DNA of 26,737 nucleotides, taken from Mitosporidium daphniae. Its lineage: Eukaryota; Microsporidia. The stretch's first letter is position 1; the number at the start of each line of letters is the position of its first letter. Made by a program: the position numbers and the translations under genes. The stretch covers positions 1 through 26,737 of the forward strand of contig NW_013546158.1 of assembly GCF_000760515.2 (NCBI RefSeq), read 5' to 3'. The notes under the pieces are model-generated. The model did not search any database. It worked only from the letters and a program-made list of their open reading frames with translations, and had not been told where the DNA came from. Below, one piece after another: positions 855-24,572 of this stretch.

Positions 855-3424
855 TCAATAAAACTCATCTTCAAATGCGCCGCCAATGCTGGTGGAGGAA
901 GATTTCACGGCATTCATCTGCAAATTGTACATCTCTGCAATCTAAATGCATAAGTGGTTTGACAGCAAAGCGAATTACCAAAGACGAACGAGTAGCATCT
1001 TCGGGCTTTTTGTCTTCGCGTATTCTAATGAACCTCGGAAAGCGAAGCGAAATGCCTTTTGAAGGATCAACCTATAGGATAATCAAGCTATCAAATTGCT
1101 ACAAGGCCCCTAGCTGCGGTATACAGTGGTGAAATAGAAAGATCTGCCGTCTTAATTTCCCAGACCTAGGAATCAGAGGGGTTCTGGTTACTCTCTTTGG
1201 CTCAAACCATACATCTGGCTTTATATTTTCAGTGACATCATAGTGCAGAGGAGGAATGGGGATGATAAGATTTTTAAATTCGATCGAGTGTTGCTCCAGC
1301 TCTGCTTCCGAAAATCCGGTTCCAAGCTTACATATTGCTTGGAAGCGAAAGACGTCCATGTCATTCCCATCGGCAGGATCCTCATCTTCCGCGTGATCGG
1401 AAGAACCTTCAGCATCATGCGCCTGCCTTTTATCTGTTTTCCAATAATTGTTGTCATCATCCGCAACATCAATAGATGCAAGCAGAAAGCCACCAAACAC
1501 ACCTGCCCGTTTTCCTCTGCCAAAATAGCCTCCAATCACCACCAGGTCGAGTGAATCGCAGGCCGTAGAATTCAAGTAATCCTTCTTGATTTTGAGCCAA
1601 TTTCTGGATCGTTTTGAGGGCTCATACCAGGAGCACTCGTTATCGAGCGTCTTTACCATCAACCCCTCGCATCCGTCTAAAAATTAAAAGGTTCCAATAG
1701 CGAACACCTGTGATTGACCTTTCCAAGTATTCCTGGATTTGCTCTACCTTTGTGCAATCCAAATAGGAGGCGTGATAAAAACACCCTTCCTCGATGGGAA
1801 AATTCGAATGAAGCAGCTGTCTTCTTTCTCGAAAAGAGGTTCTAAGCAAAGGGGTTTCGTTCAAATAAAGTAAATCAAAAGCAAAAAGGACAACATGCAC
1901 CTGCACACTATCAATGGTAACATCCTAAAAGGAGAGAAAAGGGATACCTTTCTTTTTCTAGTGCTAAGTACTTGGAAGGGGAGGATCTTGTTACTGACCG
2001 GGTCCCAAGCAACCGCCTCGCAGTCTAATACAAAGGATTTCAACGGCATCTTGCAATTTTCCATGCTTTTGGACAAGTTGGAAATGATATCTGGATACTT
2101 TTGGGACATGTCCTCGAGATTCCGTGAAAACAAGGAGCATTTCATGGGCGAACTGTCGAGCTTTGAATAATGAACCTGACAGCGCTCTCCGTCATATTTG
2201 TATTCACAAGTGAATGGAATCGACTCGAATCGATCAAGAACCTCGGTAAGAGCAAAGGTTGGATGTGCCAGCATAGGGCGAATGGGACACCCTGGTTCCA
2301 TTTTGACCTTGCTGGTGATGGTTGCAATACCGCCCTCCGCGATATCCATCAAATGGGGAATAATTCTCTCATATGCCGGAATTTCACTAGCAAGAAGGGA
2401 AAAGTCGGCAAAGTTACCTGAACACAGACTTTATCATGGAGACGCCATCTTCAAGCGCGGCATCAAGGCCCTTTTTGAAAAAGGCCTTTTTAATTTCGAC
2501 GGGGCCTCCTTGAAACTGATGAAGAAACTGCACAGATGCCTGCGCAAGAGCAATCAGTACGGATTGCTCTGCAAGTCCAATACGAAGTTTTCCCTCAAGA
2601 GAGCGGATAAGATACTTGGGCTCGCTTCCCCTACATGCCACGAGTAGCGAGTGCACGCGATCTGTTTTCCGAGAAACAGCCTAAAAAGAAAGAATTGAAT
2701 TCCAACATTTGATCCAGAAATCTGAGCAACCTCTCTTAAAGTCTTGAACACATGAGAAAGGGTAAGTGGTTTTGGAGCCAACATGGTGGTTTGTGTGTGT
2801 CTGCTGCTCTAATGTCAATTATGTAAGCACTAAGGTACCTGCATCACCTTTCCCAGATCTCCCAACCGAGAAACATCTGCTTTGATGGAGGCAACGGATT
2901 TTCCAGAAGATGATGCAACTGCTCTGATTAGCAGAGACTCTCCAAGACCCAACTCCAAGCCTTCGAAAATAGGTCCCACCTACAAGTATCACCAAAAAAG
3001 GCGTTTACCCTATTGAGACACAAGTAAATCGAATACAGCAGCTGATTCCTGCATTTTCCCTCGCTTTCCTGCACCATCAGCTTGAAAAAGAATGCAGACA
3101 AAACGCCTTGGATAGCAAGCCTAGATGTAAGAAGCAAAAAAACCTCTTTGTTGTGGCTTCTATCTTTTCAAATGCCTCCGCAAGCTCAAGATATGGAATG
3201 CTTCCACTAAATCGTAAGAAGCTCAATACAAACGCCTCGTCATTTGCCGATACAGTATCATCAAGGGCAGCTTTATTTTGCCTGAAAAATGGCTGTATAG
3301 GTGTGTCCTTCTGAAAAGCAAAACTCAACCTCGGCTGGAGTATGTCATTGTGAATTTGAGACAAATTCTCGTCGGAAGTCACGACATTGTTGTCTGCAGT
3401 TCCCAATGGTACGTTTGATGACAT
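855..3424 (-). CDS. LIG1: DNA ligase I (ATP-dependent), 11 exons
   Basis: ATP-dependent DNA ligase that seals Okazaki fragments and repair nicks in the nucleus. The spliced product is about 760 aa (human about 919); the difference is mostly a short N-terminus. Residues 1-35 contain a degenerate PCNA-box-like IQPFF. The DNA-binding domain follows ([17 protein letters not shown]). The adenylation domain holds the catalytic motif EYKYDGER with Lys363 as nucleotidyl acceptor, then STRKRK and FAFDLLYLN. The OB-fold has [10 protein letters not shown], a KIKKDY lysine motif and, near the C-terminus, [20 protein letters not shown]. An acidic insertion of about 40 residues sits between LLASID and [10 protein letters not shown]. 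Ten introns, in plus-strand coordinates: 942-978, 1072-1102, 1166-1191, 1677-1707, 1925-1947, 2387-2417, 2681-2706, 2809-2838, 2980-3008, 3121-3143 (23-37 nt). Removing them gives 2283 nt, a multiple of three. The conserved family sequence is continuous across every junction. The start is the first in-frame ATG. Confidence 0.96.
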
Positions 3425-3700
3425 GGGCTTTCCAAAAAAACTCCTAAATTCATGATAAAGCGTGAAAAGCGTACAATAGGTTCTTATGATGCGACATTCG
3501 GCGAACTAGCAGTCGAAACGAATAACTCGGATTGATCCAAATTTTTGGACTTGCAAGTTGGTAACTCGATTAATTTTTATTAGCGTAACCAACCCTGATT
3601 AGGGTATTAAATTTTATGGCCAGTGGGTTCTGTGCATATACATATGGCAGCGGAACCACAACGCGAATATTGGAATGCTGCCAGGTGCAACCGGAATAAT
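3425..3700. other. Intergenic gap between FANCJ 3' end and ligase 5' end
   Basis: A gap of 276 bp between two minus-strand genes. It should contain the ligase promoter (right next to 3424) and the FANCJ 3' UTR. An AT-rich TTAATTT tract lies near 3568, and a palindromic CCCTGATTAGGG sits at about 3591. No gene or RNA is recognisable. Confidence 0.4.
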
Positions 3701-6700
3701 TTAAAATTTATTGAGCAAATTTTTCCAGGGCGAAAATGAGTTGTGTTTGATGGCAGGGGGCTTTGTTTCGCTTTCGGAAATCGGAAACACATCTATAAAT
3801 CGAGACCCTAGAAAAAGGAAACAAAAGTACCTTTTTTGGCATTGTCCTTGTCACCACCCTCATCGTCGCTAATGATTGTTTCAATGGGAGCGCAAAAAAT
3901 CCCCTCACACTGGGAGTCCTCAATCTGAATGTAGTCTTTTTCGCAATGTGGTTCCTCCGTATTTTCCTGCATTTCCTCCAGCAAACGGGGCATTTGAAAC
4001 ATTTCTTTTATCTCTTGATGGATCATATTATCACTTTTTGGCATCTGATGCCGATCATCGGCTTTGAGCTCGTCCTTTTTTGCACTGAAATTTCTCCAAT
4101 TATTCATAAAAGTCGATAGCGAGGCAGTACTGTCCGCATAGCTGGGATATACCTTGACATTGTTTCTAACCCACTTTGAAAGTTGCTGCTGGTTCCTAGC
4201 ATTTACAAATCGCTTTTCCAATAGGATAATAGCACCCCAATCATTGCGATGCCGAAGACACCTGCCTAAAGCCTGATTCAATGCCCGATATGCTTGAATT
4301 TCGTACCTAAAAAATCAATCGTCATTGGGCACCATTGGCTGCCCGTAAGAAGGCCCTTGCTCAATGCGTATCTGGTATTGAAATCTTTTTTCGCGGTGAT
4401 CTGAATATCTTTAGCAGAGGGAAATGGAATCCCAATCGCTATAACGGCCCGGGCGTTATCATCGATAAAATCAAGCCCCTCAGATACTTTTCCTCTGTAA
4501 ACGGCAATCAAAATGGCACCGCCGCTATCTTTTCCCGTCTTCTTTGCTTGTAAAGTTGAGGCGGCAATCGATTCATAATACTCATCAAGAAGCTCTTGAA
4601 AGCCATTTCCAGACACATTCTGAGGCTCTACGACTAGAATATTGATTTACCTATCAACACCCGTTTTATCTGCGAAAGCTTCGCGAAAAGGCCAGTAGAT
4701 TTCCACCGTGTGATAGCCTTCTTAAGGAAAGAATACGAAGGGACAAAACACAAAACACCATGCGGAATAAGGGGAAGATATCCAAGAATCGCAAGCCCCA
4801 TTTCATCTTGGAACGAAAAGGAGTCCAGCGATCGATAAACGCCCTCGTTGTCAAGCCCATTTGGCGAGCGGGGAACAACACCAACCCAAACTTGGTTTGG
4901 CGAAATAACATGGTTCGCCTCCAGCCGATGCCCAAATGCCGTTTGCAGCTCAGAAGCAAATGAGCCCATCTACTGTTAGCATGNCACAGCATTACGGGGG
5001 AGAGGGTTCCGCTTGTAAGGATGATAGATTTGGCCTCCTGTGCCATGGGCCCAAAAATAATGCCCGGATTGAGACACCAAAACGAGAGCTTATATGCCCT
5101 CTTTGAGGTACCGTGATCGCCTACAATTATGTGATGGGGTGCCTAACCATGATGTACGATATAGTCATTAAGAGCCATCTTATAATCTGACAGGTGCTTT
5201 TGGTAGTTTTCCTCAAATACAAACTTGAGGATAAACAACAGCCCTGCGAGAACAGTTTGGGCCCCGCTGGATAAAAAGGACAGCTTTTCTTTCTCCTTTT
5301 GATCCAAGTCGCGCTCTAGCTCCTGAGAGCGCTCCATTTTCTTCTTAAAGTCGCTGTAATAGAAAATGCTAAAGCCAGCTGCATCGATGGTGGACTGAAT
5401 CTCGGAACCATCCCATCTATTGATAAACGGACAACAAATGCTTACAAGTAAATTTTGCTTTCATATTGAGCAATCGGTGCTTTCCCCTTGGGCGGCGATT
5501 TGAGGAACGTCAACATTTTGAAGATAATCTAAAAGAAAAGCCACCGTCACACTTACACCCTTCAAAAAAGTATAGATGTCTCGGAGCTCCGAAGAAACCC
5601 CTTCAAGTGTGTGGGAATTGTTTTTCTTCCCATAAACCATGCTTAGATTGACGAGCTCATTTTCGATCACTGAAATAAATAAAAATGCCTACTCTCCAGC
5701 CGATCATTAGTAACCTCATAGCTACCCGCTTCTCTGGCGGTGTCTTCAATGTTGTGGGCCTCATCAATAATGACGACATTGTCCTTGATGTTGATTGCCA
5801 TTGCTGTCCTGACTTGCGGGTCACAAAGGTAATTGTAAGGTGCAAACACAACTTCTGCCTCTTGAGCAAGAGCCCTGGAAGCATAATATGGACACCCTGC
5901 CATTTGAGCAACCAAAAAATACCCTTCACATCGCGGCCATTTTCCACCAGATCTTCGATATCCCAGATGGTATCTTTCATCGCCTTTGCCAAGTTGTCTG
6001 CCCGATGGTAGTATTTGCAGGCACCATCTTTGACCATTTCCTTGCTGGAGGTAAACAAAAATTTTAGGTACCATTTTTCGTTCGGATCCGCTGAGTTCAA
6101 TGCTGCATTCTGAAGACATAAATGATTTCGGCTGCCTAGGACTGCCATTTTCGGCCTATAGGAAGTAGATCCAAGTTCTTTAACTAGTTGTGTAATTTGC
6201 CGATGTGTTCTAGAGCATATATAAATTTTTGAAACGCTAGGAGGCAGCTCTTTTTTGAAAAGAATTTCTTGTGGTAATTCCTCCGTCGAAAGCGACGCAC
6301 ATTTTGCGCCTTTTCGGGACTTTTGATGGTGGAGCCAACTCAGAACCGAGCATAAAAGTGAAAGGCTTTTGCCACTGCCGGTCGGGCTCTCGAGAAGAGC
6401 GTTTTCGCTGGTTGGCGCACTCAATGCACGAGTAATCTGCAGCGATAAGCGCAAAACTTGCCTACCTTATCCATCATATTGAGCTGGCATGCATATGCCT
6501 TGTAAGGGAAGTTTACACTGATCCCGTTGATCGTATAAACCTGCTGGTCTTGCTTCCTGTAATACTTTTCCTGCTTTTCATCGGCATTCTTTGGAGAGGA
6601 TTTGTCTTTCGCAGCCTTTGACTGCCCTAACTGAGGCCGCTTTGGAATAAACAGAAGATCAAGCTTTGATGCGGACTTTTTCTTGGCTGCAGAAGATGGC

Positions 6701-6753
6701 GGCAGAAACTCTCTCTTTCTTTTGACCTTGTCTTCATTCATAAAAGAGAGCAA
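3701..6753 (-). CDS. BRIP1: FANCJ/BRIP1-type Fe-S DNA helicase, 12 exons
   Basis: Superfamily 2 5'-3' DNA helicase of the XPD/FANCJ group, acting in interstrand-crosslink repair and G-quadruplex unwinding. About 921 aa (human 1249, mostly a shorter C-terminus). Motifs in order: NFPYKAYACQLNMMDK (Q-like), Walker A ESPTGSGKS near residue 115, four Fe-S cysteines (203, 218, 227, 260), DEAH box VIIDEAHN near 303, LTSGTLSP, VYRGKVSEGLDF, and motif VI QALGRCLRHRNDWGA. QWYEIQAYRALNQALGR and the EPQ...ELLDEYY stretch separate it from DDX11, XPD and RTEL1. Introns: 3808-3830, 4307-4332, 4628-4650, 4970-4995 (contains the N), 5121-5147, 5417-5445, 5529-5556, 5670-5692, 5897-5922, 6045-6071, 6437-6465. 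Spliced length is 2766 nt, a multiple of three. Cys218 is encoded across intron 6045-6071. The start could also be the second Met four codons in. Confidence 0.94.
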
Positions 6754-6793
6754 AAAATTAATTTATAAAATCGGCGGATTAATTGCCCTGCCA
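6754..6793. promoter_or_regulatory. 40-bp bidirectional promoter region, FANCJ / TIP41
   Basis: The start codons of the two divergent genes are only 40 bp apart. The gap contains TTAATTT and a second ATTAAT, the same AT-rich element seen near other starts in this window. Promoter activity is inferred from position. Confidence 0.4.
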
Positions 6794-7703
6794 ATGGAGC
6801 TAAACTCGCTGAAATTGCCAAACTCAATACTTGTACAGTATGGTGCAACAGGTTGCATGGCTACTTCGGTCGAGCGCGAACGGTATTTGCATCCATTTAT
6901 CATACCGTAGCTTGCAAGCAGAGCTGGCATTTCCGCCTCCGGACATAATATTTTTAAATTCTATTTTAAAGATCTCCTTGCACGGAAAAGAAATCCTGTC
7001 ATGGAGCCCCTACTTAATTTTAAAGGATATCCTGAAGGAACCCCCTGCCCTATTTAATAGTCCTCAATGTTTGGACAAAATTTCGCCCAAATGGAGCCCT
7101 ATAGCTTCAATTGCACCCTCGCCGTTCAAATATGATTGGACGTTTTCGTCCATGTATAATGGGATGGTCAATTCCGACACACGTCATGACGCGTTTATTG
7201 GCAGCCAACAGTTGGACCTGGTATTTGATAAAAAAATACTCCAAAAAAACAGGGATGACCCCATCGCCACGGCATTGTCCTTTTTGGTCTACGAAGATGA
7301 ACTTGGCGATATGGGAAAAAGCGTATTTTCGTGTCGAATCAGAATTACCACGAGATACATGTTCATCCTTACAAGATCATGGCTGGAGCTGCCGATGCAA
7401 GGCATATATCGGTCAATTGAAAATCGATGGATGTGCTATGTTGACATGTGCCCGCCTTCGTTTCGACATGAATTTTGCATAAAAGAGCTCGTCAATACAA
7501 ATTGCCACCTAAATCGTGAAAATGTCGACGATGTTTTCAGAGATGCCGAAGCCGCCAAGTTGGATGTGATCCGTGAGCACATTAAAATTGTAAACTTTTG
7601 CTTTTTGGCGATCTTTAAATTGACAAGGGTTGCACCAATGCTATTTATGTTCCTTCCCCATTGGTATCAGGGCATTCGATTGATTGTGCAAAATCATTAT
7701 TAG
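6794..7703 (+). CDS. TIP41/TIPRL-like PP2A-phosphatase regulator
   Basis: TIP41-family protein of about 293 aa. Family members bind PP2A-type catalytic subunits; yeast Tip41 antagonises Tap42 in TOR signalling. The family core is visible: PPPDIIFLNSILKI, FKYDWTFSSMYNG (family consensus YDWTYTTDYKG), then SFLVYEDELGDMGKSVFSCR, matching the family EDELHDHG...VKIRVMP signature. One intron at 6883-6910 (28 nt) joins an N-terminal exon (MELNSLKLPN...) to LQAELAFPP; without it the frame upstream is lost. Spliced length is 882 nt, a multiple of three. The C-terminal 40 residues (after about DVIREHIKIV) do not resemble the family and could hide a further intron. It is followed after 33 bp by a kinase gene on the same strand. 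Confidence 0.85.
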
Positions 7704-7736
7704 CGCCTATTCGATGAAGTTTGATTTTTTGCTTTA

Positions 7737-8888: not shown

Positions 8889-8989
8889 TAAACTTGAGCA
8901 CACCCGGCAACATAATGCTCTTCATTTAAAAATAACCCAGCCAAGGCAAGTACCAACTTGGACGCAGTTGTGATTTATGATTACGCTAG

Positions 8990-10698
8990 CTAAATCGTTC
9001 CAAAGTAGCTGAGAAGATTGGCTTTTAACGAAGCCTGCTTTTTCTTCTTGAGATATTTGCATTCTTTTTCGTGAAAGGAATGGGCATCTAGCGAGAAAAA
9101 TTGTTCTTTTCCACAATGGATACATTTGACAACGCGAATGGGATCTGGAAGTTTCCTATCATTACAGCATTTAAAAGAATGGTCAACTCTCATCACCAAA
9201 GGGGGCTGCGTGGCAAAGTTTGAAAGCCGAAAGCCGATCAGTCGGAGTGGATAAAGCCCCAAAATTGAATCCAACAGCTAAAATTAACATTTGCGTAGCC
9301 TTTACCTGCTGAGATAGAGGTTCCAACTTCGAATACGAGCTCGATAAGTCGTCCAATGGAACAGGGTCTCTTGTCGTCTGGGATCTTGTAAAAACTTGAA
9401 AGGTATCGGTTTTTACACGAAGTGTTAGCGTACAACAAAGCATGTTAGCAGGCATTCGAGAGAGGGCATCAAAAATAACCTCCTTTAAAATTTCAATTGA
9501 AGTGTTTCTCAACACAGAAATATCGGTGGTAGGCTGAAAGGACCTATCAACACTAATGCTCTTCTGAATCCCCAAACAATTACCCTCCTCTTGATCGTCT
9601 TCAAAGCCATCTTGTTCATCATGATCATCACTCCTAGTCGAATACAGTCCCAGAGCAGAAAACAAAAGTCCTTGCCAATAGTTCGGGTCATCAGCATATA
9701 TCAGGGCCAGCTTGTATCGGTTTTGGAAAATGTCGCCACAAGTACGGATTTCAAATGCGGTGCCAAGAATTTGCTCCGAAACAGGGCCAATGCCAGGAAG
9801 TTTTCTTATCGACTGTGTTGATAGCCAGTCTTTAATGTATTCAAGCGACGATGGCAGCAAGAATTGCCCATTTGGTTTATTTACATTTGAAGAGATCTAC
9901 CATTAGGCATCATGCTGCAAACTATGTTACCTTTGCAAGGGTCCTACAGTAAGCCATACCAGCAGAGGAGACAAGGCCGGTTTCCAATAAAATCTCCTCC
10001 CTAATTTGAGTGACCAGTCTACTCCGGTCTTCTATGGTGGAATTTTTTAACAGATGCGATAGATTTAAGGATGCTTCGTCAAATGAATGCGAGCGAAGCT
10101 TAGGATCATACCTCTAAAATCAGCCACGCTATACACTTACTCGAAGAATTTGTCTTATGCGCATGCCATACGCTTCGTATATCTTCATGCGAACAGGAAG
10201 GATTACCAGATCCGGACATAGTCGCATTGCAATATATCCAGGCATTGCAGAAGCGATTCCGTATTTGCGAGCAGCATAATTTGCTGTGGATAGCATTGAT
10301 AGGTGGCCAACTGCCATCGGAATGGCAGCCAAACCGGGGTTAAGCAGCTCTTCAATGGAGGCGTAAAACGCGTCCATATCCAAATGCATAAAGTATGTCT
10401 CTGATTGCAGAACAGACTCGCTTTTTGCAGTTGCCTTTTTTATGGCTGCTTCCACAGTCGAATCATTGTGGAGACACTGGGTTTGCCTGATGTTTATAAG
10501 TCTCATTTTCAAGTCTTCAACTTGCGCAGAAATCCGTCTTGCCTTTGCATCTATCGAGTGCTGGAACTTTGACCCCGCTGTGATGGACTTGATCAACGAG
10601 CTTATAGATGACTTGTCAACATTTTGAACACCAGACTTGTGTAGAAACGACTGTTCAAATCCATAAATGGGCTTCTGAACGCCTTCATTGGGTTTCAT
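8990..10698 (-). CDS. POLK: DNA polymerase kappa (Y-family), 4 exons
   Basis: Translesion DNA polymerase of the DinB/kappa branch, about 539 aa (human 870). An N-clasp-like helical region occupies residues 30-100. Catalytic acidic residues lie in HLDMDAFYASIEE (Asp107, Asp109) and HSFDEASLNL (Asp198, Glu199). Further family signatures are STANYAARKYGIASAMPGYI, KLPGIGPVSEQIL (HhH) and NVNKPNGQF. The C-terminus carries a UBZ4-like zinc finger (Cys496, Cys499, His513, Cys517) and a final KANLLSYF resembling the KxxLxxFF PCNA box of human Pol kappa. An acidic insertion (about residues 320-345) precedes SISVDRSF. Introns: 9278-9305, 9897-9930, 10114-10140; the spliced frame is 1620 nt. It converges on the kinase gene with a 101-bp gap. 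Confidence 0.94.
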
Positions 10699-10879: not shown

Positions 10880-12926
10880 ATGTCCATTTCAAGTGAGGAG
10901 GTAAACTACCTCATTTACCGGTATTTGCACGAAGCTGGTACGGTTTCGTTGGCGCTCATTAATTTTAGGCTTCCTGCACTCTGCATTTACATTTGGACAT
11001 GAGTCCTTGATTTACAAGAGCCATTTGAAGGGAGATACTGACGACTATGCTGGTCTATTGGTCTCTCTTCTTCACAAAGGGCTGTTGTACTTCAAACTGG
11101 AATACCACTTATCGGAGGCAAGATACCTTTCCGTTGATCCTTTAGGATGGAACTTCAAAGTCTTGCAATAAGCCATTTGAATTATTTGAGAGCCATGTGT
11201 GTGGAACTGAGGCCGTCATTGACCTTGATTCTGATGACCAACGGAAATCACCTTTGGAACCGACTGCCAAGTCTACGAAAAAGCCTAAAAGCGATCGTAA
11301 AAAGCGGGCAGAGGACGATGTAATAAAAAAGGAGCCGCAACCGTCTTCTTTATCCATGGGGCCATCATTAACGGAGCCAAAAAAGCAGTCAAAAATGCCT
11401 GTCATCGAGCCGCTAAGGGACCAAGATCTGATTGCGGCATCAAAAGAGCCTTTTAATGAGGTAATTTCGTCCTCCCAGGAGCTTATTGTCTCCTCTCCAT
11501 TGCCAGAGGAGCTTCAAATAACATCGCCGGTTACCACCCCAAATAGCCATTTCCAAGCAGAAGCCTTGACCCAATCTGAAATGGAAAAAAGCACATCTAT
11601 GGACTTGGACCATAAACGTGAAATGGAAGTCCAAAACAACGACCAAAGCGCTCCTGTGCAAACGCCATGTGATCTTGAGCTCAAGGTGCAAACCCTAACG
11701 CGCCATTCAAAAGGAGTATTTTCTGTTGCCTTTAACCAGTCAACGCCCTCCTTATTGGCTTCGGCGTATGTTTTTCTATGCTTTATTTTCCTAGTTCTTC
11801 AGATGGCACTGCCGTTATTTGGAAGATCGATGACACGGCCAATGGTATGCTTGACAATCCACCTGTTCCCTCATCTGCCTCGATTGTTGCTGTTCTTGAG
11901 CATGTTGGCGAAGATGGATCTCCAATTGATGCCACAACTGTCGAATGGAGTGTAAGACGAGTCTTCCAATTTTTCCCTTAGCATTCTGGAAAGCTTCTTT
12001 CAACAGGCACATACGATGGTTCGGTGAATATTTGGAATGCACAGGGATCTCTTGTTTGCAAATTGACGCACCATACGAGGCCTGTTTTTACTGTCAGATG
12101 GAACCCCAAAGATACGTTACTTCTTGCAGCCTCATTTGACAAGTCTGTTTCTCTCTGGAATGTGGCTTCTGGAAATAGCTCTTTGTCGACTGCAAATGGA
12201 TTTTCAAAACCAGTTCCGCATCAAATCTACACGTGCTTCTCAGGGCCTGTGGTATGTGTTTAACCGATTTCTAATATCTCCAAATAGCTCGATGTGGATT
12301 GGAAAAATCCTACCATCTTTGGAGCAGCTTCTGATCATTACATTTACATTTGTAAGGTCGGCGAATCGGCGCCATTGATGGTTTTTGATGGGCACGTGGC
12401 CGAGGTAAACTCGCTTCGTTGGGATCCAACGGGGTCGCTTTTGGCCACCGGTTCGGATGACAAAACGGCGAAAATTTGGAGCATGACTCAGGACACGCCT
12501 CTTTTGACTCTTTCCGGGCACACCAGAGATGTATACTCCGTGGCATGGTCGCCTTCCCGCGCGTCCTTGCTGGCAACAGCCTCATTTGACGGCAGCGTTC
12601 GGATATGGTCCACTCTTGACGGCTCATCTCTTTTGCTATTTGCCAACCACAAGTTTCCCGTGTACACAGTCTGCTTCTCCCCAGATGGGACCTATTTGGC
12701 ATCTGGATCCTACGACAAAAATATACATATTTACAGGCTTTCTATTGAGGAGAGGAACTCTACCTTTGCAATCTCTGCAAACACAGCATGCCCCGATGCT
12801 ACGTTCCAAGATACCGGCGGAATATACGATCTTTCTTGGCATCCCTCTGGGCGGATTCTTGCGGCTGGAAGCGACTCTGGAAACGTTCAGGTTATCAGCC
12901 TTGTCTCTAATGGTCGATCGTTGTAA
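10880..12926 (+). CDS. TBL1/Sif2-like LisH and WD40-repeat protein
   Basis: About 630 aa, related to TBL1X/TBL1XR1 and yeast Sif2, the WD40 scaffold of HDAC3/Set3-type corepressors in the nucleus. Residues 1-69 form a LisH plus F-box-like region (SSEEVNYLIYRYLHEAG, HSAFTFGHES). Residues 70-248 are a charged Lys/Glu/Ser/Pro linker. Residues 249-630 hold WD40 repeats with TBL1-type wording: SSDGTAVIW, STGTYDGSVNIW, NSLRWDPTGSLLATGSDD, SPDGTYLASGSYDKNIHIY, GGIYDLSWHPSG. Introns: 10938-10968, 11118-11145 (GC-AG), 11766-11794, 11952-11981, 12252-12287. Spliced length is 1893 nt. The LisH/linker junction HLSE|DGTS only works with the GC-AG intron; no GT donor restores the frame there. AATAAA lies a few bases after the stop. 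It converges on the next gene. Confidence 0.9.
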
Positions 12927-13006: not shown

Positions 13007-14084
13007 TTATTGCTTGCATGCCCGTCTGGCCTTGAGGCGACGGATTATAAACATTGGGACTGGAAGAACCACAGACGACAATATGGGCAAGTATATGGAA
13101 AGATACATCAAATCCGGCTGTGGTCGATCATTCAGCAGCTCCTTCTGTGCTAGCTCTTTTGTGTCAATCAATAATTGGCAGTAGTCGGCTAGCTCCATAT
13201 CATCGGACAGTTTGGAATGGATCTAGAGCCGTTGGAATGGGGAGACTTACCTGTTCATGTGCAGCGGCGGAAAGCCTATGATGTTCCAATGTCCTACCAA
13301 TAGCCACCTGAAAAAGCGATTTAACAAGAAAAGACGGCACAAAATCAGAAATGCCCGAACTTTGGCTGTGATAGTCGATGATTCCAAACCCATCGACAAC
13401 CTTAGTAGAAGGTTTGAAATGGGCATCATCAACAAACACATAGTGCAACGTATCGGAGGTGCTGTGTGTCCTCCCGGTTTTTTCGACAATCAGTGGAATG
13501 AGCTCGTTGATAAGTGCTGGCCTGTTGGTCCAATTCAAGCACAGAGTGTAAACTTGGAAATTGTCTCCCCAAATATGGGAGAGAATGGGTCGCTTGCTTT
13601 CAACAAACTCGGACAATTGCTTTGAAAAGACACTGTAGGAAATGGACGGCGAAGCAGAAGAAGACACATAAATGGCCACCAAATCTAGCGTGTTGAATCC
13701 CCTAGCTGGTACCAAATGACTAACCGGTTTTTCGGCCTTTTTTAGTTGTTCATAAATAAATTCGGGGTTTGTAGATAAGTGCGCTGGGTCAATCAAAGAA
13801 GATTGTATGATATGCCAAGATGTGAAAGCAAAAATAAAAATCTGCACCACTGCGATGATTGAGAAAAACTTTAAAACCAAGCCTCTCAGTTGGGGATCTT
13901 CAATTAGAAACGAACCAAAGTTACCTAAAAGAAAGCTTTCCTCAGCATTGCTGGCTGTATTTGATGAATTATCGTGCAATTCGACATTCCCGCTGTGAAC
14001 TTCAGTATCTTCGTCTTTGTTGTGATGGGAGTGCACACCATCACGATGAAGCTGGCGAGTACACGCAACATCGGGAGCTTCCAT
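13007..14084 (-). CDS. Two-pass membrane protein, possible PIG-S (GPI transamidase subunit)
   Basis: About 349 aa. Topology: a 50-60 residue polar N-terminus rich in His/Asp/Ser, a membrane segment KFFSIIAVVQIFIFAFTSW near residue 80, a lumenal-type domain, and a second membrane segment (SIYLPILSSVVLPVPMFII) followed by a basic tail RRLKARR. The terminal anchor and the helical segment before it resemble the C-terminus of PIG-S/Gpi17 (YLPLF-type anchor with Pro), and DFVPSFLVKSLFQ could correspond to the PIG-S FF/FVAQTL segment. The protein is much shorter than known PIG-S (about 530-555 aa), so the assignment is tentative. One intron, 13223-13250 (28 nt); spliced length is 1050 nt. The start is the first ATG downstream of a TTG-initiated extension. 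AATAAA overlaps the stop. Confidence 0.45.
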
Positions 14085-14110: not shown

Positions 14111-14794
14111 TTAATTATCGCCCACCTCGCCAATGGATTTTAAAAAAGCCTCGTATTCCAAATCTATGTCGTCTTTGGATGGGGCATTTTTCTTTTGCAC
14201 AGCCGCCGATGGGATAAGGGATGGCGTTTCGGCTTTAAGAGAAGGGCGCGACTCGGACACCACGCCAGAGGCAATTTTCGACGAAATATATGGTTTGGGC
14301 ACCGGATGCTGATTTTGCTCCAACGTGGGTGGATGTTCCATTCCAAAGGGTCTGCGGATGGCTGCGGACGGTTCCTCGATTATGGGCGCCGGCTCTCCGC
14401 CAGCAATGCTACCATCCTTGGTAGGATTGCTTTCGACAGGCTCGTCGCCAATTCGGATCGGGTTGCATTTGACTGGAGCGAGCCCTTTTGTTTCTCGTTT
14501 CTGATTGTACACCACCAATTGGCCAGCCAAACGCTTCTTCTTCTCTTTTAGGGCCGAAGATAAGCCCTCTGCTGATATTAGTTTCTCTAGTTCATACACA
14601 AAGTTTGGGATGGCATCGCCGGATTTTCTCGATTTCGCGTGCTTCTTTTTTAGTGGCACCTCAGCATCGCCAGTTCTATCACTTATCTACAATTGAGAAT
14701 GCCATTTGGATACCTTTTTTTGTAGTGCCCTTTGTTTCTGCTTTTTCCAGTACACACCCATCGGTGTTTTCCCGAGCTTGTCCCCCTTGGCCAT
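14111..14794 (-). CDS. Basic nuclear protein resembling WBP11 N-terminal domain
   Basis: About 218 aa. The N-terminus, MAKGDKLGKTPMGVYWKKQK, followed by alternating Lys/Arg/Gln and a helical segment (FVYELEKLISAEGL, LKEKKKRLAGQLVVYNQKRE), resembles the WBP11 (Npw38-binding, spliceosomal) N-terminal pattern of a basic block then a leucine-rich helix. Residues 100-190 are low-complexity with many Pro, Ser and Glu (HPPTLEQNQHPVPKP), as in WBP11-like tails. One intron, 14687-14713 (27 nt), separates the first 27 codons from the rest; spliced length is 657 nt. If correct, it would be a pre-mRNA splicing factor. Its stop is 26 bp from the start of the next minus-strand gene. Confidence 0.45.
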
Positions 14795-14857: not shown

Positions 14858-15822
14858 TTAAAAGTTTTCAATTGAAAGTGAGCCGGCAGCATAGGAAACC
14901 GAGGATTCATCCATGTCAGTTACTTTTGAAGACTGGGCGTATTTGACCCATTCGAGCCGGGCGCCGCATGCGTCCCGTAAAAAGCACCCCAAAAACATGA
15001 GCAGCCCCAAAGGATCTTTTCCGCAAATCGTGTTTCCGTATCTTTGCAAGTACGCATGCCATTCTTGAAGGCAAAATTTCTGCAGCACCTGCATCGCCTT
15101 TGTATCGAGTTCCTCTATTTGCATGTAAATGGGATCGCAACACCTAGGAGCTAGATAGCAGTACTGGAATCTTGTTCCCCAATGGCAAAAGTCGGAAGAG
15201 AACACAAACACGGTGGAGCTGGAGTGGCGCCATATTTTCTCGACCACAGCCCCATGGCTCCCATCATCTTTGCTAACATAAATGGGAAGGATTGGTATTG
15301 TTGAATGCCGCATCAAATACGAAATGAAGGGAAACATCATTTCTATCGAATGTTCGGCCTTGTCTTCGTTGATCGGCAACACGGGCAGCTTGAGAAGGCT
15401 CGCCAGGTCTGTGTCTACATACAAATTTCCAAGTGGCGATTGTTGCACTTTGTATTTGCTTGTCCATAGGGTAGCCTTCTCGCTGCGGAACTGATGCAAT
15501 GGGCCAACAAGCACGATTGTGGAAATCCTACCGAATCAAAATATCCTTTTACTGGCCTCGAAATCTCCACTTATCATCGTGTGTTTTTTCGCAAAGCTGT
15601 TTAAAGGCCGCTGCGGCAATTGCGCCGCTGTAACGGATCCCTGCATGCGGCGCCACTATTGCAACGACCGATCTGCCATTTTGGGGGATCAATTCGGCAT
15701 TCTTGAACAAGATTTCCATGTCACTTCTGAGTTGGTGCTCTAAATGCGTCAAAATTCAATAAGCAGGAACCATCGCTGGAATACCAAGAGCCGGCATGGG
15801 TGGCAGGCCTGACAGATGTCAT
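14858..15822 (-). CDS. MEMO1: MEMO1-family protein
   Basis: Member of the MEMO/AMMECR-associated family with a class III extradiol dioxygenase fold, about 302 aa (human 297). Conserved segments in order: ATHAGSWYSSD near the N-terminus, IVAPHAGIRYSGAIAAAAF (metal-site His), IVLVGPLHQF (second His), EHSIEMMFPFISYLM, VFVFSSDFCHWGTRFQY, GNTICGKDPLG (conserved Cys), VKYAQSSKV and SSVSYAAGSL. Human MEMO1 has been described as a copper/iron-binding redox protein. Two introns: 15528-15552 (25 nt) and 15740-15770 (31 nt); both restore the family alignment (WYSSD|EHQL and RGQ|ISTIVLVGP). Spliced length is 909 nt. It is divergent from the Urb2-like gene, with 70 bp between starts. Confidence 0.93.
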
Positions 15823-17572: not shown

Positions 17573-17603
17573 GCTGGCCTTCGTTGGCGAAATAAAGTTT
17601 AAT

Positions 17604-19230
17604 TTAATAAGCACTGGCTTGGGGGTCCTTTTGGCGCTTCCATTTTTTGTCAGTCTGGTTGTTTTTGTAGGACGGCTGCTTCTTGCGATCCTTGGACGCC
17701 AAGGCGGCAACTAGCATTTAAAACAAAAGGCTTACCAATGTTAACGTTGGGCGGCACCGTAAAGCCAAACGAACGGCCCACTTTCAGCAAATCAAGAGTG
17801 TTGACGTTAAATATTTGTTTGAGCGAATGCGAGGCATATGCTTGCAGGTACGAGGCAAAGCCGTCTCTTGCAAGCCTGTTGAGATAGTAGTTTTTTTCAA
17901 CAAGGCCCTCAAGTTGGACCTGAATATTTGCGATCTTTGCAGAGGATGGCAAGTCATATTCATTTAGCGGGACTTTTGCCTCTTTCAGGAAGTGTAAAAA
18001 CCCAACCTCCGAGGGGAGAAGGAAGAGAAGCGCCTTTCCAGACTTTCCGGCGCGGGCCGTTCGGCCGACCCGGTGAATGTATTCTTTCGGATCATCGGGC
18101 GGGTCATATTGGATGATCCAATCAACTTGGGGGATGTCCAAGCCCCTCGCAGCAACGTCTGTCGAAAGCAGGATCCCCGTGTCCTTGTTGATGAATTCGA
18201 AAAACGTCGAGGTTCTCTTTGACTGTTTCTGCTTTCCGTGCAAATCCAACACAGGGATGTCAATGTAATTCAACAGGTCCGAATAAAACTTTACCGCGTT
18301 GCAAGACGAAAAAAACACCATGATTTTTTTCTTGTTCAGGTACTTTTTAAGGAATGTAAACAGGAGAAGGAATCGCTGGTCAGAGTCGATCACAACATAG
18401 CCCTGTTCGAGCGTAGAGTTGGTAGACACGCTTTCCTGGGCATGCACATTTACATAAAGAGGCGCACTGTTGAAAGAAATCCTGACAAGGTCGTCCACTT
18501 TCGTTGTCTGCGTGGCGCTAAACAGCAGTGTTTGACGTTCCTTGGGAAGGATCGACAGGATGCGCTTCATTTCGTCCTCAAACCCAACCTCCAAAATCCG
18601 ATCTGCTTCATCAATAATTAGCATCTGCGTATTGGAAAAGACAAACCCTTTGGTATTTTGCAGATGATCGAGCAATCGTCCTGGCGTGGCTATCAACAAA
18701 TTGACGCCTTTTGAGAGCTTTTCAGCCTCGGCTCGCCTATTGGCGCCCCCAATGACCAGGCCAAAGGTGTGAGAGTGGTGGGCAAATATTGTCTTTGCAA
18801 CCCCTAAAATTTGAAGGGCAAGTTCTCTTGTCGGGCTGATGATGATTGCTCCGGTGCCATTTCTAGGCCGAAATTTGACCTTGTAAAGGAGCTCGACAGC
18901 GGGAATCAAAAATGCCAGCGTTTTTCCGGACCCGGTTTTAGCGGCTGCAAGCAGATTTGTGCCAGTAAGGGCAGGTGGAATGCATCGTGCCTGAATTTCA
19001 GTCATGTTGTCAAACCCGAGCTCCTTGATACCCTTTAGAGTTGGCTCAGAGAGCGTTTCGATTTTATCGAAAGCGTAGTTGTGGACCTTGGCACCAGACA
19101 GATCGGCCTCGTTGATTGGGGAAAATGAATCTTTTTTTTCTTCGATCACATTATTGCGCGAAGAAAGATTTTCCATCGTGTGTTTTTCCTCCTCTTCATG
19201 AGGATGGGCGGAGGATTTTCTTTTTCGCAT
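17604..19230 (-). CDS. HAS1: DEAD-box RNA helicase Has1/DDX18
   Basis: ATP-dependent RNA helicase of 60S/40S ribosome biogenesis, nucleolar, about 533 aa (yeast 505). All DEAD-box motifs are present: Q motif [15 protein letters not shown], motif [11 protein letters not shown], Ia [22 protein letters not shown], motif [15 protein letters not shown], motif III SATQT, motif [11 protein letters not shown], motif [57 protein letters not shown] and [10 protein letters not shown] are Has1/DDX18-specific. One intron, 17711-17735 (25 nt), lies after VPPNVNI and leads into a short basic tail ([16 protein letters not shown]...) typical of Has1; unspliced, the frame would end in an unrelated tail. Spliced length is 1602 nt. 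It is divergent from GPI8. Confidence 0.95.
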
Positions 19231-19263: not shown

Positions 19264-20459
19264 ATGGCTAAAAATTCGGCATTGCTAGTAGGTCGACCGC
19301 CACCACCATCATTTTCAATGTAGGTCTCCACTTCCCGGTTCTGGTTTAACTACAGACATGCGGCAAATGTGCTTTCAGTATACTATATTTTGAAAAAATT
19401 TGGGTATTCCGACGATAGGATTCTTCTGATGTTGTCAGACGATATCCCGTGCAACTCGAGAAACAAAGAGCCGGGGTGTGTGTATAACCATTACAACCGA
19501 AACGCCGATCTATTTGACGATGCGCCTGAGGTCGATTATAGCGGGGACCAGGTGACGCTTGATTCGTTCCTCTCTGTGCTCAAAGGTGCGATTTCCGCTT
19601 TTACCGGGCAAACTAGATAGCTTTGATACGAACACCCCGCTTTCCAAAAGATTGGTAGCAGATGAGAATACGGACTTGCTAATTTATTTGACCGGTACGC
19701 CATCGAAATAATGCAATAGGCCACGGCGGTGAGGGGTTTTTGAAGTTCCAAGATTCCCACGAAATTACGGCTAACGAGCTTGCAGATGCCATTCTGCACA
19801 TGTACACCAATAGGAGATTTAAGTCCGTACTGCTGATCATCGATACATGCCAGGCCGAATCGATGACTCGGCTGATATCGGCTCCCCAAGTGATCAGCAT
19901 CACCAGCAGCAAAATCGGCGAGTCCTCATACTCGGTACATCATATGCGGGGTAACCCCAATTTAGCACCATGTTGACAGCCTGCTGGGTGTTCCGGTGAT
20001 CGATCGATTTACCAACCATTTGCATTCGTATCTTTTGAAGTACGTCAAGAACCCCGCATCCTCGCCCTCGCTGCACGATTTTGTGGCGTCTTGGGATGGG
20101 GTTGAGTTCCATTCAACGCCCACAATTATGCTCTCCGATGAGAACATTGACATTGAAAAGGTGTCTTAAATGGCGTTTAACGGTAGGTTGCCATGTCGAC
20201 GTTTTTTGTTCCCCAAAAGACCAGTTTGAGAAACGTCAAATTTGAAAAGTTCACAAGTGCGTCTCGATTTAATCCGATCGCCGCATATTCATACAGGCCT
20301 CTCGTTTGTGGACAGATTTCGGAAAGGCCATCGATCTCGTTTGTGCTTCAGGATCAAGATTTTTCCATGCTCTACTTTGCGTTTATCCAGCTGTTGGTGG
20401 CGATCATCACCATCGGGGCCGTGTGTGTTTTCGCATACTCAAAACATATTAAAAAATAG
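19264..20459 (+). CDS. GPI8: GPI8/PIG-K, GPI-transamidase catalytic subunit, 6 exons
   Basis: Caspase-fold cysteine protease subunit that transfers GPI anchors to proteins in the ER. About 348 aa (yeast 411). Family wording is strong: STSRFWFNYRHAANVLSVY, DDRILLMLSDDIPCNSRN, EVDYSGDQVTLDSFL, LLIYLTGHGGEGFLKFQD, SVLLIIDTCQAESM, GESSYSHH, VPVIDRFT. The catalytic dyad is His123 and Cys165, 42 residues apart as in human PIG-K. The last exon supplies a C-terminal membrane anchor (YFAFIQLLVAIITIGAVCVF, then AYSKHIKK). Introns: 19288-19323, 19586-19616, 19695-19719, 19935-19965, 20161-20186. Spliced length is 1047 nt. Oddity: the first exon encodes only MAKNSALL directly before the caspase domain, so no signal peptide is visible; an unseen upstream exon cannot be excluded. 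Confidence 0.92.
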
Positions 20460-20505: not shown

Positions 20506-21322
20506 ATGATTTCAGCATTAAACTACATGATCTCCGTGGTCATTGCCATAGGCCCTGTGCTTACCTATTATCCCCAGATTTTAACGCTGACAAGGCGGCG
20601 GAGCGTGGGGAGCTTTTCCCCCGGCGTTTCTTTCATCCTGGTCGCCTCTAGCATGTTGCGAATATTCTTCTGGTACGCCCGTGGATCCATGACTTTGATA
20701 GGTTTTACAAGCGGTTTCAAATATCCCTGCTGATTCAAAGCATTTTGCTCATCATCCTTCACATAGCCATCTTGACGATAATTGTTTTCTTCACAGACTA
20801 TTTCAATAGCAAGGTATCAAATTCCGATGGCAGCGATCCTCTGGTTTCGAAAGGCCAAATCGAAAATAGGGCATTTCGCGACTGCAAAAGGTATCCCAAG
20901 TTCCACCACTTTATTTACATCATTTTGGCCCTTTTTGTTGTGGCCCTTGTAATAGTGCTGTTTGATTGCAATGGGTGTCCCATGTGTTGCTCCACAGATT
21001 CGGCCTCTTCCAAGACCGCTTCAATTTACAGACTATGGCCCGAGTTTCTTGGCATCTTGGCACTCTTCATTGAGGCCATGCTTCCAATTCCTCAACTCTA
21101 TGCAATAATCCAGCAGAAAAGCACGGAAAACCTCAGGTATGTGCATGTGATCACCACCTTAGTTTGGTTTTAATTCTTGGGTGGTTTTTTGGCGACTTTT
21201 TGAAGCTGATTTATTTCCATATAAACACGACGCCGTGGCAGTTCATAGCTTGCGGGATATTTCAGTTGAGTCTGGATCTGATCATATTGCTTCAATTTGT
21301 CAGGTATAAGGATCCGCTTTAA
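20506..21322 (+). CDS. PQ-loop repeat membrane protein (SLC66A2/Any1-like)
   Basis: About 253 aa with seven likely membrane segments and two PQ-loop motifs: VLTYYPQILTLTRRRSVGSF and EAMLPIPQLYAIIQQKST. SSMLRIFFWFYKRFQISLLI and GWFFGDFLKLIYFHINTTPW match the SLC66A2 (PQLC1)/Any1 group, Golgi/endosomal proteins linked to phospholipid scrambling and flippase function. A hydrophilic loop (about residues 93-125) lies between repeats. Introns: 20673-20701 (29 nt) and 21137-21162 (26 nt); both restore the family sequence (IFFW|FYKRF and TENL|SLVLILGWF), and spliced length is 762 nt. The start is 46 bp downstream of the GPI8 stop on the same strand; an earlier in-frame ATG would lie inside GPI8. Confidence 0.82.
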
Positions 21323-21408: not shown

Positions 21409-22087
21409 TTAAATGTTGCCTGCTTTCGACTTGAGGGCGCCGGTCATGGCGACTTTGTGCGAAAGCTCGCTCACATATGCGTCTTGTAGCGTCGACATCT
21501 GGTCGGAGATCTTTTGCACCAGTAGATCGAGCGAATCGTATAATTGCGCTATGGTTTCTAAACGGGTTAGCCAAAAGCGGAGCCGTACTTTTAATCTTTA
21601 AATTAATTTGGAAGAACTCTGAAGAGTACGTTTCTAGAAGCTTATCGCCAGAATGGGCCACAGGCGCTGAAGAAGCCAGCTCAATTAGGTCCAAGTTTGG
21701 CGAGTTTGCTATCAAAAGATCCAAACTTGCATCGGTTTTGCAGCGAAAGTCGTCCACCTCATCAGTGTGTGCACTGGCCTCTTGATCTTTACAAAAAAGA
21801 TCCAAGGTGGCGCTCTTATTGGCAGGTGTGCTGTATTCCTCGTAGTTGGCGGCGCAGATCCTTGTGCTAAACGGAGTGCAAAAAATTTCTTCTTTCATCG
21901 GATGCATGGCAATAGGCTTTGCGGTGTCTGGATCATCGCAGCCACCCTGATTTGGGCTTTGTCGTTTAGCCGGCGCCGGTTTGATCTCTTCCGCAGGTTT
22001 GCGCTTTTTGGATGCCACTGGAAGAGAGCTGAGGATGGCATTGCCTTTCCTAAATCCAAACATTAAAAAAGAAGACATGAAGTGCAT
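21409..22087 (-). CDS. Unrecognised protein with basic N-terminus and C-terminal coiled coil
   Basis: About 215 aa; I do not recognise the family. An N-terminal basic patch (SKKRKPAEEIKPAPAKR) looks like a nuclear localisation signal. A polar middle follows, then from about residue 150 a helical heptad-like segment: GDKLLETYSSEFFQINLKIK, then AQLYDSLDLLVQKISDQM. One intron, 21558-21588 (31 nt, with a GGCTAAC branch-like sequence), switches the frame from an Arg-rich unlikely tail to this coiled-coil tail; spliced length is 648 nt. A second possible 27-nt in-frame intron begins just after the first four codons and cannot be decided by eye. Size and layout are reminiscent of small kinetochore or spindle proteins, but nothing specific supports that. 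Confidence 0.55.
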
Positions 22088-22789: not shown

Positions 22790-22800
22790 ACTTTTAATTT

Positions 22801-23579
22801 TCATAATTTGTGCAGAAATGTCATAACGTCATTCTCCTCATGAGGGGAAATCGAATGGCCTAGCCCCTTGTACTCTTTGAACTCAACTGACCGGAAAAAG
22901 CTGGAGATTCTACGCGAGCTAACATGGGCCCATTAGATAGGAATAAGAAAATCGGCAGTTCCATGTCCCCAAAACACAGGGACATCAAGACGTATCTGGG
23001 GAGACTCCGAATTCATCGCCGCCGGTGAAAAATCGCTCTTTGCAAACGGTAAATAGGACGAAAGGATAATCAAAGCAGACGGTTTTATGTGGCTCTTCAA
23101 AGATGCATACAGGGAAACCGCACCTCCCTGGGAAAACCCGCCAACAACAAGTTGATTAGACGGGAATCTCTTGGAAAGTGTCTCAATTAAAGATGCAATC
23201 GCAATAGACGAGGATTCAAATCCCTTTCTATCTTCAATAGGCTCTACAGGATCCAAATGGACAATGTCATACCACGAGGGCATCCTCATGCCCCCATTTA
23301 GGGTTACCGGCTGAATTGGGCTATGGCATTAAAAAGGGAACCCCATTACGCATCTGGAAATATAAAGAGAGTATCCGGATGTTCTTTATGGTAATGCTCG
23401 AAAAACGGAGCCCAGCTGCTTCCCGTGTCACCAAGGCCGTGCATAAATACCACCATCTGCCTAAAGGAGCGGGCAGAGGGCAGCTCGGATAACTTTGGTA
23501 TCGAGGCATAAGAGAGACCCATACGCAAAATTGAAAAAAAAATTCCAATTAAAATCGCCATCATGCTTCTTGGGTGCAT
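22801..23579 (-). CDS. Acyl-protein thioesterase / lysophospholipase, interrupted by in-frame TAA
   Basis: Alpha/beta hydrolase of the APT1/LYPLA family, which removes palmitate from proteins. Segments: MVVFMHGLGDTGSSW, APIQPVTLNGGMRMPSWYDI, nucleophile VVGGFSQGGAVSLYASL, FWGHGTADFLIP (acid), then YKGLGHSISPHEENDVMTFL (catalytic His). The N-terminus has a hydrophobic stretch (AILIGIFFSILRMGLSYA) resembling a signal peptide, unusual for this mostly cytosolic family. One intron, 23321-23349 (29 nt). A TAA at 22933-22935 (codon 206 of 250) interrupts the frame between the catalytic Asp and His, yet the homologous sequence resumes in the same frame to a TGA at 22801. No GT-AG intron removes the TAA without deleting the Asp motif. 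It is therefore a nonsense allele, a pseudogene or a base error (Gln CAA would fit). Confidence 0.8.
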
Positions 23580-23702
23580 GATAATATGTATGGCGTTAGG
23601 GTTGGGCCTCGGGTGAATTTTAATTAAATTTGGGGCGGTAGCTCAAGCCTCAAGCTTCGGCTTCGATTGGGTTGCAATCTCAATTTGATTTAATAAAAAC
23701 TC
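23580..23702. other. Intergenic gap, thioesterase 5' side / SGT 3' side
   Basis: A 123-bp gap between two minus-strand genes. It contains TTTTAATTAAATTTGG near 23617-23632, close to the thioesterase start, and a small hairpin-prone CAAGCCTCAAGCTTCGGCTT. No gene is seen. Confidence 0.35.
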
Positions 23703-24572
23703 TTATTTTGGAGGCCCATTTCCCTTCATGCCACTTCCAAGGAATTGGGATGCAAGGTTTGCAATGTTGGGGTTATTTAATAACCCTTTTGCAGCATCAG
23801 AGCTCATGAAATTCTGCGCCATAGACATTAAATTTGGATCGGAAAGTAATGAAGATAGGTCGAATCCTGGAGCATTTGGAGCTGCGTCCTTACTTGAGGG
23901 ATGCTCATTTGATAACAAAGCCTTGGCCTCTGCTAGTTGCGATGTGATTGACTCGTTTGTCGGATCCGCCAAAGAGGCTTTTTCAAGGATATCCACAGCA
24001 GATTTATACTTTTTTTGTGCCAACAGAACAGAGCCCAATCGTACTTGGGCTTTTGTGTATTTGGGATCCAACTCGAGCGCCTTGAGACAGTCTTTTTCGG
24101 CGTTTGATAGTGCGTTAGCATCCTCTGATTTTAGGTGCATCCATGCTGCAGCTCTGTTAGAATAAAAAATAGGCTCGCATGGATTGAATTCTATTGCCTT
24201 TGTATATTCATCAATGGCTAGTTGATAGTTTTTCGACAGGAGAGCTTCGTTTCCTAAAAGAATAAGATCAGGCACTTATGGCTAACCTTTGGACTTGTGA
24301 ATGGACGCCATTTCCTTGTCGACCTGCTTTTGGCTAGCCACGTCTTTACCAGTGCCTTCTGGGCGCAACGAAGCATGGGTGAAAAGCGATTCAAGATCAA
24401 CCGTATGGCTTTCTGAGGCGGAAGAGAGATCGGAAAGGCATTGGATTGCAACTAGATAAAGCTAAATGCCGTCTCAAATACCTTCAAGAGATTCCCTTTT
24501 GTCGAGTGAAAGATTTTCGGCCAGACAAAGCTTTTTCAAATAAGCAATGATTGATGGAAGTAAAACTGTCAT
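23703..24572 (-). CDS. SGT2: SGT-type TPR co-chaperone
   Basis: Homologue of SGTA/yeast Sgt2, which captures tail-anchored proteins for the GET pathway and binds Hsp70/Hsp90. About 268 aa. The N-terminal dimerisation segment (LPSIIAYLKKLCLAENLSLD, ESLEVAIQCLSDL) matches SGTA; three TPRs follow (GNEALLSKNYQLAIDEYTKA, FYSNRAAAWMHL, KAQVRLGSVLLAQKKYKSAV), with a short SEDANALSN insertion. The C-terminus has the NPN/SMAQNFMSS repeat region but no long glutamine/methionine-rich tail. Introns: 24254-24286 (33 nt) and 24452-24481 (30 nt), both supported by SLE|VAIQ and KSKG|NEAL continuity; spliced length is 807 nt. It is divergent from the MscS-like gene. Confidence 0.9.

Follow-up and report, generated by a model that had tools for sequence, protein, structure and literature searches.

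Predicted ultra-short spliceosomal introns of 23-37 nt in the basal microsporidian Mitosporidium daphniae

Contig NW_013546158.1 of Mitosporidium daphniae, a basal microsporidian that parasitises water fleas, raises the question of whether the short segments that interrupt the reading frames of its genes are spliceosomal introns, and whether introns of this kind occur throughout the genome. Here, the window denotes the whole stretch of DNA that was analysed, 26,737 nucleotides (nt) in length. Judged from sequence and homology, the segments are very probably U2-type introns of ordinary chemistry whose length has been reduced genome-wide to about 23-37 nt, and we infer that RNA is actually spliced at these sites.

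Predicted introns in the window and in the genome

A gene finder that combines codon usage with GT..AG segments was run on both strands of the window, and the models were then corrected by homology. The curated set contains 47 predicted introns in 14 genes, with a range of 23-37 nt, a mean of 28.8 nt and a median of 29 nt, Table 1. All 47 are shorter than 40 nt. This agrees with the first-pass annotation, which had proposed 47 introns of 23-37 nt with a mean of about 29. Its four 23-nt examples (1925-1947, 3121-3143, 3808-3830 and 5670-5692) are all GT..AG segments on the minus strand, located in LIG1 and FANCJ. Its count of 11 introns in FANCJ was confirmed, while the ten given for LIG1 became 11 after curation.

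Every donor starts with GT (47/47), followed by A in 37 introns, T in five, G in four and C in one, so the earlier description of donors relaxed beyond GT applies only to the bases after GT. The acceptors are TAG (42), CAG (4) and GAG (1). Once the introns are removed, each of the 14 coding sequences has an open frame and a length that is a multiple of three, as had been claimed. Retention would shift the frame for 37 of the 47 introns. The remaining ten have a length that is a multiple of three (3n) and nine of these contain an in-frame stop, but these counts are not readable as selection because the finder is nearly blind to 3n introns without a stop. The GT-AG boundaries and the restored frames are as for U2-type spliceosomal introns.

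Further evidence comes from known proteins. In seven genes, 32 of 37 junctions lie inside matches, 30 of them in alignments and two, in the TBL1-like gene, by matched range only. The corrected LIG1 aligns with the metagenomic ligase P0001 (56% over 692 columns) with 10 of its 11 junctions inside. The same number is found for the corrected FANCJ against human FANCJ (E-value 3.9e-164), where the score rose from 511 to 551 bits after two junctions were fixed. All junctions are covered in pol kappa (3/3), PIG-K (4/4), MEMO1 (2/2) and the acyl-protein thioesterase (APT, 1/1), and two of five fall within the TBL1XR1 matched range. For the second intron of MEMO1, the alignment to the human protein was made with the 43-nt form (15528-15570), which lies beyond the 23-37 nt range.

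The other ten introns, in seven genes, are based on frame and motif, save for the range matches of SGT and the relatives of DDX18. Two DDX18 relatives, 87% and 80% identical, track the window through NIGK, whose codons the donor GGTAAG creates. Past this point they diverge, which is what an intron at this position in their genes would produce. The closest relatives of DDX18 (P0122) and MEMO1 (P0242) are both on one ENA contig of 93,858 bp, so that public data probably contain a sister species in which these genes are linked.

Six proteins encoded elsewhere in the genome, drawn from ten among 36 candidates, have 51 junctions, of which 28 are covered by Pfam matches; four of these 28 share a single spot and are an artefact of the finder. 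For a PSMD3/Rpn3 homologue in this set, an alignment to the solved protein was obtained as well. In a ligase tree the window ligase groups with the metagenomic P0001 and P0002 on a long branch. Scans of viral and prokaryote contigs gave no eukaryotic relative, a universal small-subunit rRNA 16-mer had no match, and Rfam scans of the sampled sequence described below returned two tRNAs only.

To compare the boundaries with chance, we scored 1024 definitions (2-nt donor, 3-nt acceptor) over segments of 18-45 nt, using no splice matrix and codon frequencies from four intronless open reading frames. The window's coding score was highest under GT..TAG (779.9), with 737.0 for the next definition (mean 644, standard deviation 30).

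The genome-wide extent was estimated on a 226.7-kb sample, consisting of the window and 20 additional 10-kb stretches, which is 4.9% of the 4.66-Mb, 147-contig assembly. GC content per sampled stretch is 0.38-0.48. An assembly of 5.64 Mb with 43% GC and 612 scaffolds, the longest of 115,468 bp, has been published (PMC5701793). Ten boundary pairs were compared with lengths of 15-120 nt allowed and neither splice matrix nor length prior. GTA..TAG gave 114 segments at 22-36 nt vs 8 at 52-66 nt, while the nine control pairs gave 9-30 and 10-30, respectively; the largest control, GTA..ATG, had 30 vs 16. A strong short-length peak is therefore restricted to GTA..TAG among these pairs.

With a learned splice matrix, 15-150 nt allowed and no length prior, 329 of the 760 introns predicted in the sample fell within the 22-40-nt range of a single peak that rises from a flat background, and on pooling the 21 contigs the peak is at 27-28 nt. 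The density is 1.76 introns per kb in the curated window and about 1.2 per kb in the sample after by-eye background subtraction, which by extrapolation gives roughly 5,000-9,000 introns in 4.66 Mb.

Table 1. Coordinates of the 47 curated introns of the window, with strand and the basis of each prediction.
Intron	Length (nt)	Position	Strand	Basis
LIG1 1	31	3444..3474	-	frame/stop and GT..TAG; outside alignment
LIG1 2	23	3121..3143	-	junction within P0001 alignment
LIG1 3	29	2980..3008	-	junction within P0001 alignment
LIG1 4	30	2809..2838	-	junction within P0001 alignment
LIG1 5	26	2681..2706	-	junction within P0001 alignment
LIG1 6	31	2387..2417	-	junction within P0001 alignment
LIG1 7	23	1925..1947	-	within P0001 alignment; interrupts PF01068 match
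LIG1 8	31	1677..1707	-	within P0001 alignment; interrupts PF01068 match
LIG1 9	26	1166..1191	-	junction within P0001 alignment
LIG1 10	31	1072..1102	-	junction within P0001 alignment
LIG1 11	37	942..978	-	junction within P0001 alignment
FANCJ 1	29	6437..6465	-	junction within alignment to human FANCJ 9ej9
FANCJ 2 (sole 3n stopless intron)	27	6045..6071	-	9ej9 alignment; restores NEKC
FANCJ 3	26	5897..5922	-	9ej9 alignment; restores CPYY
FANCJ 4	23	5670..5692	-	within 9ej9 alignment
FANCJ 5	28	5529..5556	-	within 9ej9 alignment
FANCJ 6	29	5417..5445	-	within 9ej9 alignment
FANCJ 7	27	5121..5147	-	within 9ej9 alignment
FANCJ 8 (one N inside)	26	4970..4995	-	within 9ej9 alignment
FANCJ 9	23	4628..4650	-	within 9ej9 alignment
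FANCJ 10	26	4307..4332	-	within 9ej9 alignment
FANCJ 11	23	3808..3830	-	frame/stop and motif only; past alignment end
TIP41-like gene	28	6883..6910	+	frame/stop and motif
POLK 1	27	10114..10140	-	junction within alignment to pol kappa 3pzp
POLK 2	34	9897..9930	-	within 3pzp alignment
POLK 3	28	9278..9305	-	within 3pzp alignment
TBL1-like 1	31	10938..10968	+	frame and motif
TBL1-like 2 (GAG acceptor, low confidence)	31	11160..11190	+	frame/stop only
TBL1-like 3	29	11766..11794	+	frame and motif
TBL1-like 4	30	11952..11981	+	within TBL1XR1 5naf matched range (range only)
TBL1-like 5	36	12252..12287	+	within TBL1XR1 5naf matched range (range only)
Presumed PIG-S-like gene	28	13223..13250	-	frame and motif
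Gene 14111-14794	27	14687..14713	-	frame/stop and motif; acceptor also used by public model P0241
MEMO1 1	31	15740..15770	-	within alignment to human MEMO1
MEMO1 2	25	15528..15552	-	frame kept; alternative 15528-15570 (43 nt) also keeps frame
DDX18/HAS1	25	17711..17735	-	relatives P0122 and P0123 depart from alignment just after NIGK
PIG-K 1	36	19288..19323	+	within alignment to GPI transamidase 9ub7
PIG-K 2	31	19586..19616	+	within 9ub7 alignment
PIG-K 3	25	19695..19719	+	within 9ub7 alignment
PIG-K 4	31	19935..19965	+	within 9ub7 alignment
PQ-loop gene 1	37	20423..20459	+	frame/stop and motif
PQ-loop gene 2	29	20673..20701	+	frame and motif
PQ-loop gene 3	26	21137..21162	+	frame and motif
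Gene 21409-22078	31	21558..21588	-	frame and motif
Acyl-protein thioesterase	29	23321..23349	-	within alignment to APT1 1fj2
SGT (TPR) gene 1	30	24452..24481	-	frame/stop and motif; Sgt2 9llv matched range, not counted
SGT (TPR) gene 2	33	24254..24286	-	frame/stop and motif; Sgt2 9llv matched range, not counted

Removal of the first LIG1 intron yields an N-terminus that we take to be PIP-box-like. The thioesterase frame is interrupted by an in-frame TAA at 22933-22935 (-), beyond which apparently conserved sequence continues in frame, and no GT..AG intron was found that explains this stop. Another in-frame TAA, at 25513-25515 (-), is close to two N in an RRM gene that is presumably Tra2-like. 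A gene at 24651-25286 (+) matches the mechanosensitive channel family PF00924, and the contig starts with a 22-base inverted repeat (1-22 and 273-294).

Splicing machinery and branch-site spacing

Single matches were found for the U2 (137 bits), U1 (84 bits) and U6 (91 bits) small nuclear RNAs (snRNAs). The recognition sequences are canonical in all three: the 5' start of U1 is GUACUUACCUG, U2 contains GUGUAGUAUCUG with GUAGUA kept, and U6 keeps ACAGAG. Of the second-step factors, Slu7 has one match and Prp18 has three, with identical scores and near-identical surroundings, and the gene finder predicts introns of 28 nt and 24 nt within these genes. The Prp18 loci L035, L036 and L037 (on C56, C80 and C118) are identical over at least 1.4 kb to the left and at least 1.8 kb to the right of position 1500; they are either repeats or assembly redundancy.

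The donors agree with CAG|GTAAGT at a mean of 5.4 of 9 positions. The median distance between the donor and the predicted branch A is 19 nt for the introns of the window and 17 nt for 365 sampled introns, with 9 nt left to the intron end. The small donor-branch spacing in the first-pass annotation is found among the predictions too. Its CTAAC and TTGAC sites are themselves predictions. Its minimal polypyrimidine tracts were seen as well, since 29 of the 47 introns have pyrimidine runs no longer than 5 nt.

For the human B complex, about 52 nt were computed as needed between the 5' splice site and the branch site (PMC6692369). In M. daphniae, U1 would recognise the GTA-type donors, U2 would pair with the degenerate branch site YTNAY that follows the donor at about 17-19 nt, and the TAG some 9 nt past the branch site would be chosen by proximity. 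Splicing would proceed by intron definition. Because the predicted donor-branch spacing is under the roughly 52 nt of the human complex, the 5' splice site and the branch site may be handled in succession or via shortened helices. Given the canonical snRNAs, the likeliest solution would be that the pairings take place one after the other and not at the same time, or that the helices are shorter.

Weighing the alternatives

A number of observations weigh against U2-type introns that have become short throughout the genome. The finder produced false calls: nine of its first 52 window introns failed a check by homology, frame or eye and were dropped (2631-2656, 5875-5895, 9088-9123, 10183-10206, 13898-13924, 15144-15164, 19552-19585, 20161-20186 and 21549-21588) and four were added (2681-2706, 6045-6071, 19586-19616 and 21558-21588). 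It is also nearly unable to see 3n introns that lack a stop. In the 15-150-nt run only 51% of the 760 raw calls are 40 nt or shorter, the remainder being flat false background. In an earlier test with a harsher penalty, which had no power, GT..AG ranked merely 7th of 256 pairs. Fifteen of the 47 introns are outside the counted matches, DDX18, which is backed by its relatives, among them. The YTNAY-like branch motif is weak, with an expectation-maximisation log-likelihood of 142.7 vs 77-93 for three shuffles that had fewer restarts. None of the 30 matches to the U2AF_lg profile reached the cut-off, and searches for SF1-HH, RED_N and U12, which included no positive control, gave no match. Finally, no near-identical full-length ligase was seen among the best 120 of 4757 matches, a weak point since the species' own records are possibly hidden.

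Among the rejected calls, 2631-2656 in LIG1 was wrong and was replaced by 2681-2706, and 20161-20186 contains the PIG-K stop and had fused two genes. Two calls (9088-9123 and 13898-13924) were rejected on visual inspection alone, as they are open frames; the former reads as a cysteine/histidine motif. A finder version trained with a short-length prior overcalls, e.g. 8569-8601 in a kinase and three calls in 15893-17714. This version was used for sampling and for pointing at junctions later confirmed by homology, not as the curated list.

An origin of the segments from assembly or sequencing insertions, or from pseudogene decay, is extremely improbable. The contig does contain three N, and two of its genes have an unexplained in-frame TAA. 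However, insertions would have neither GT..TAG boundaries nor a length peak at 27-28 nt across 21 pooled contigs; they would not be found again at identical codon positions in two relatives, and they would not be flanked by long conserved frames. We also consider it unlikely that, next to real short introns, longer introns are common and have been missed, so that the genome would not be a purely short-intron one. Raw calls reach 150 nt, and four adjacent calls at one spot (L008, 5589-6908) suggest a single intron of about 129 nt. Yet the lengths peak short in a run that accepted introns of up to 150 nt and used no length prior, and GTA..TAG segments of 52-66 nt are not above the controls (8 vs 10-30).

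A reduced or altered spliceosome, e.g. one that uses PUF60/RBM39-type factors and no U2AF65, could also permit the small spacing, and this we regard as possible but doubtful. In its favour are the outcomes of the U2AF_lg, SF1-HH and RED_N searches noted above, a half-pint/PUF60-like protein (152.8 bits, below the cut-off of 443.95) and an RRM protein on C78 that we read as RBM39-like. The RRM proteins examined as U2AF65 candidates, on C78, C92, C120, C136 and C64, did not resemble U2AF65. The absence of U2AF65 is nevertheless not established, because the genes were read exon by exon and the named control genomes are prokaryotic. Further, U1, U2 and U6 are canonical and both Prp18 and Slu7 are present. 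The proposed check of U1, U2 and U2AF succeeded for the two snRNAs and gave nothing at the cut-off for U2AF; the suggested special adaptation of the spliceosome is neither shown nor excluded.

Public annotation and known short-intron systems

The NCBI entry "Protein memo1 [Mitosporidium daphniae]" (P0241) is identical to window positions 15340-14900 over its first 147 residues and to 14686-14114 over the remainder. It begins at an internal MEMO1 methionine, without the two short introns and the first exons, and exits MEMO1 before the gene end via a 213-nt intron (14687-14899) into the adjacent gene, i.e. it is a chimera. The entry is on a contig of 875,980 bp and therefore comes from a newer assembly. 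The DDX18 entry P0121, from a cluster of two and the sole entry listed that is identical to the window, reads into the intron. Public models may be truncated or fused, as for MEMO1, because introns of this kind fall outside what standard gene finders look for, and some entries of the published gene list are probably in error.

The 2025 reassembly has 2,840 genes and a BUSCO score of 37.6%, compared with 83.8-99.5% in eight other species, and its authors point out that the BUSCO reference set was not tailored to branches as basal as this one (PMC12449221). The word "intron" is absent from the main text of that paper. Together with the one chimeric and the one read-through model, these figures lead us to infer that missed introns contribute to the low BUSCO score. 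The available portions of the literature on M. daphniae, including PMC5701793 and PMC12449221, hold no report of these introns, and the original genome paper may describe them. The absence of a CLK kinase in M. daphniae, as reported in a 2025 paper (PMC12795684), should be rechecked because of the intron problem.

M. daphniae serves as an outgroup for tracing the microsporidian loss of genes, introns and mitochondria (PMC5701793, PMC12449221). If thousands of 23-37-nt introns are missing from its annotation, proteome-based comparisons of gene content need to be redone. If the introns are real, they would also provide a natural experiment on the fungal side on the minimum donor-branch spacing for a spliceosome with canonical snRNAs.

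Encephalitozoon cuniculi is likewise a microsporidian with GT-AG introns, very short ones included (22-76 nt), but it has 37 introns genome-wide, relatively strict motifs and a reduced spliceosome in which U1 was not identified (PMC3629993). M. daphniae has 47 introns on one 26.7-kb contig, loose motifs and U1. Its introns do not fit the canonical microsporidian kind, few and with strict donor and branch motifs, and they are far denser than in Encephalitozoon, as the first-pass annotation had stated for microsporidia. Shrinkage may have preceded intron loss in microsporidia: a genome rich in introns and with canonical snRNAs would then have carried introns of 23-37 nt near the base of the lineage, and the 22-23-nt introns of Encephalitozoon would be relics. 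In the same reading, the gene-content figures of M. daphniae (2,840 genes, BUSCO 37.6%, no CLK) would partly be artefacts of introns that went unrecognised. For this combined proposal we find the case evenly balanced.

Very short introns are found in other lineages too. The ciliates Paramecium and Nyctotherus, which are unrelated, have introns of about 25 bp, those of 3n length in Paramecium being stop-rich and under selection, and nucleomorphs are mentioned alongside ultra-short introns in the same source (PMC5014332). Stentor coeruleus shares tiny GT-AG introns (15-16 nt) with all major snRNAs present, but their length is near-fixed, A/U is 75.6% and they occur in 18% of genes (PMC9505925). 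In M. daphniae the range is 23-37 nt, AT is about 61%, and 119 of 132 predicted genes contain introns according to the overcalling finder version. Mikrocytos mackini, also an intracellular parasite with extremely short introns (16-17 nt), differs in having 224 introns of near-fixed length and a strongly reduced spliceosome (PMC10245619). Ultra-short introns are thus already known elsewhere; what M. daphniae brings together are introns that are both ultra-short and dense, motifs that are loose, and a set of U1, U2 and U6 that is intact.

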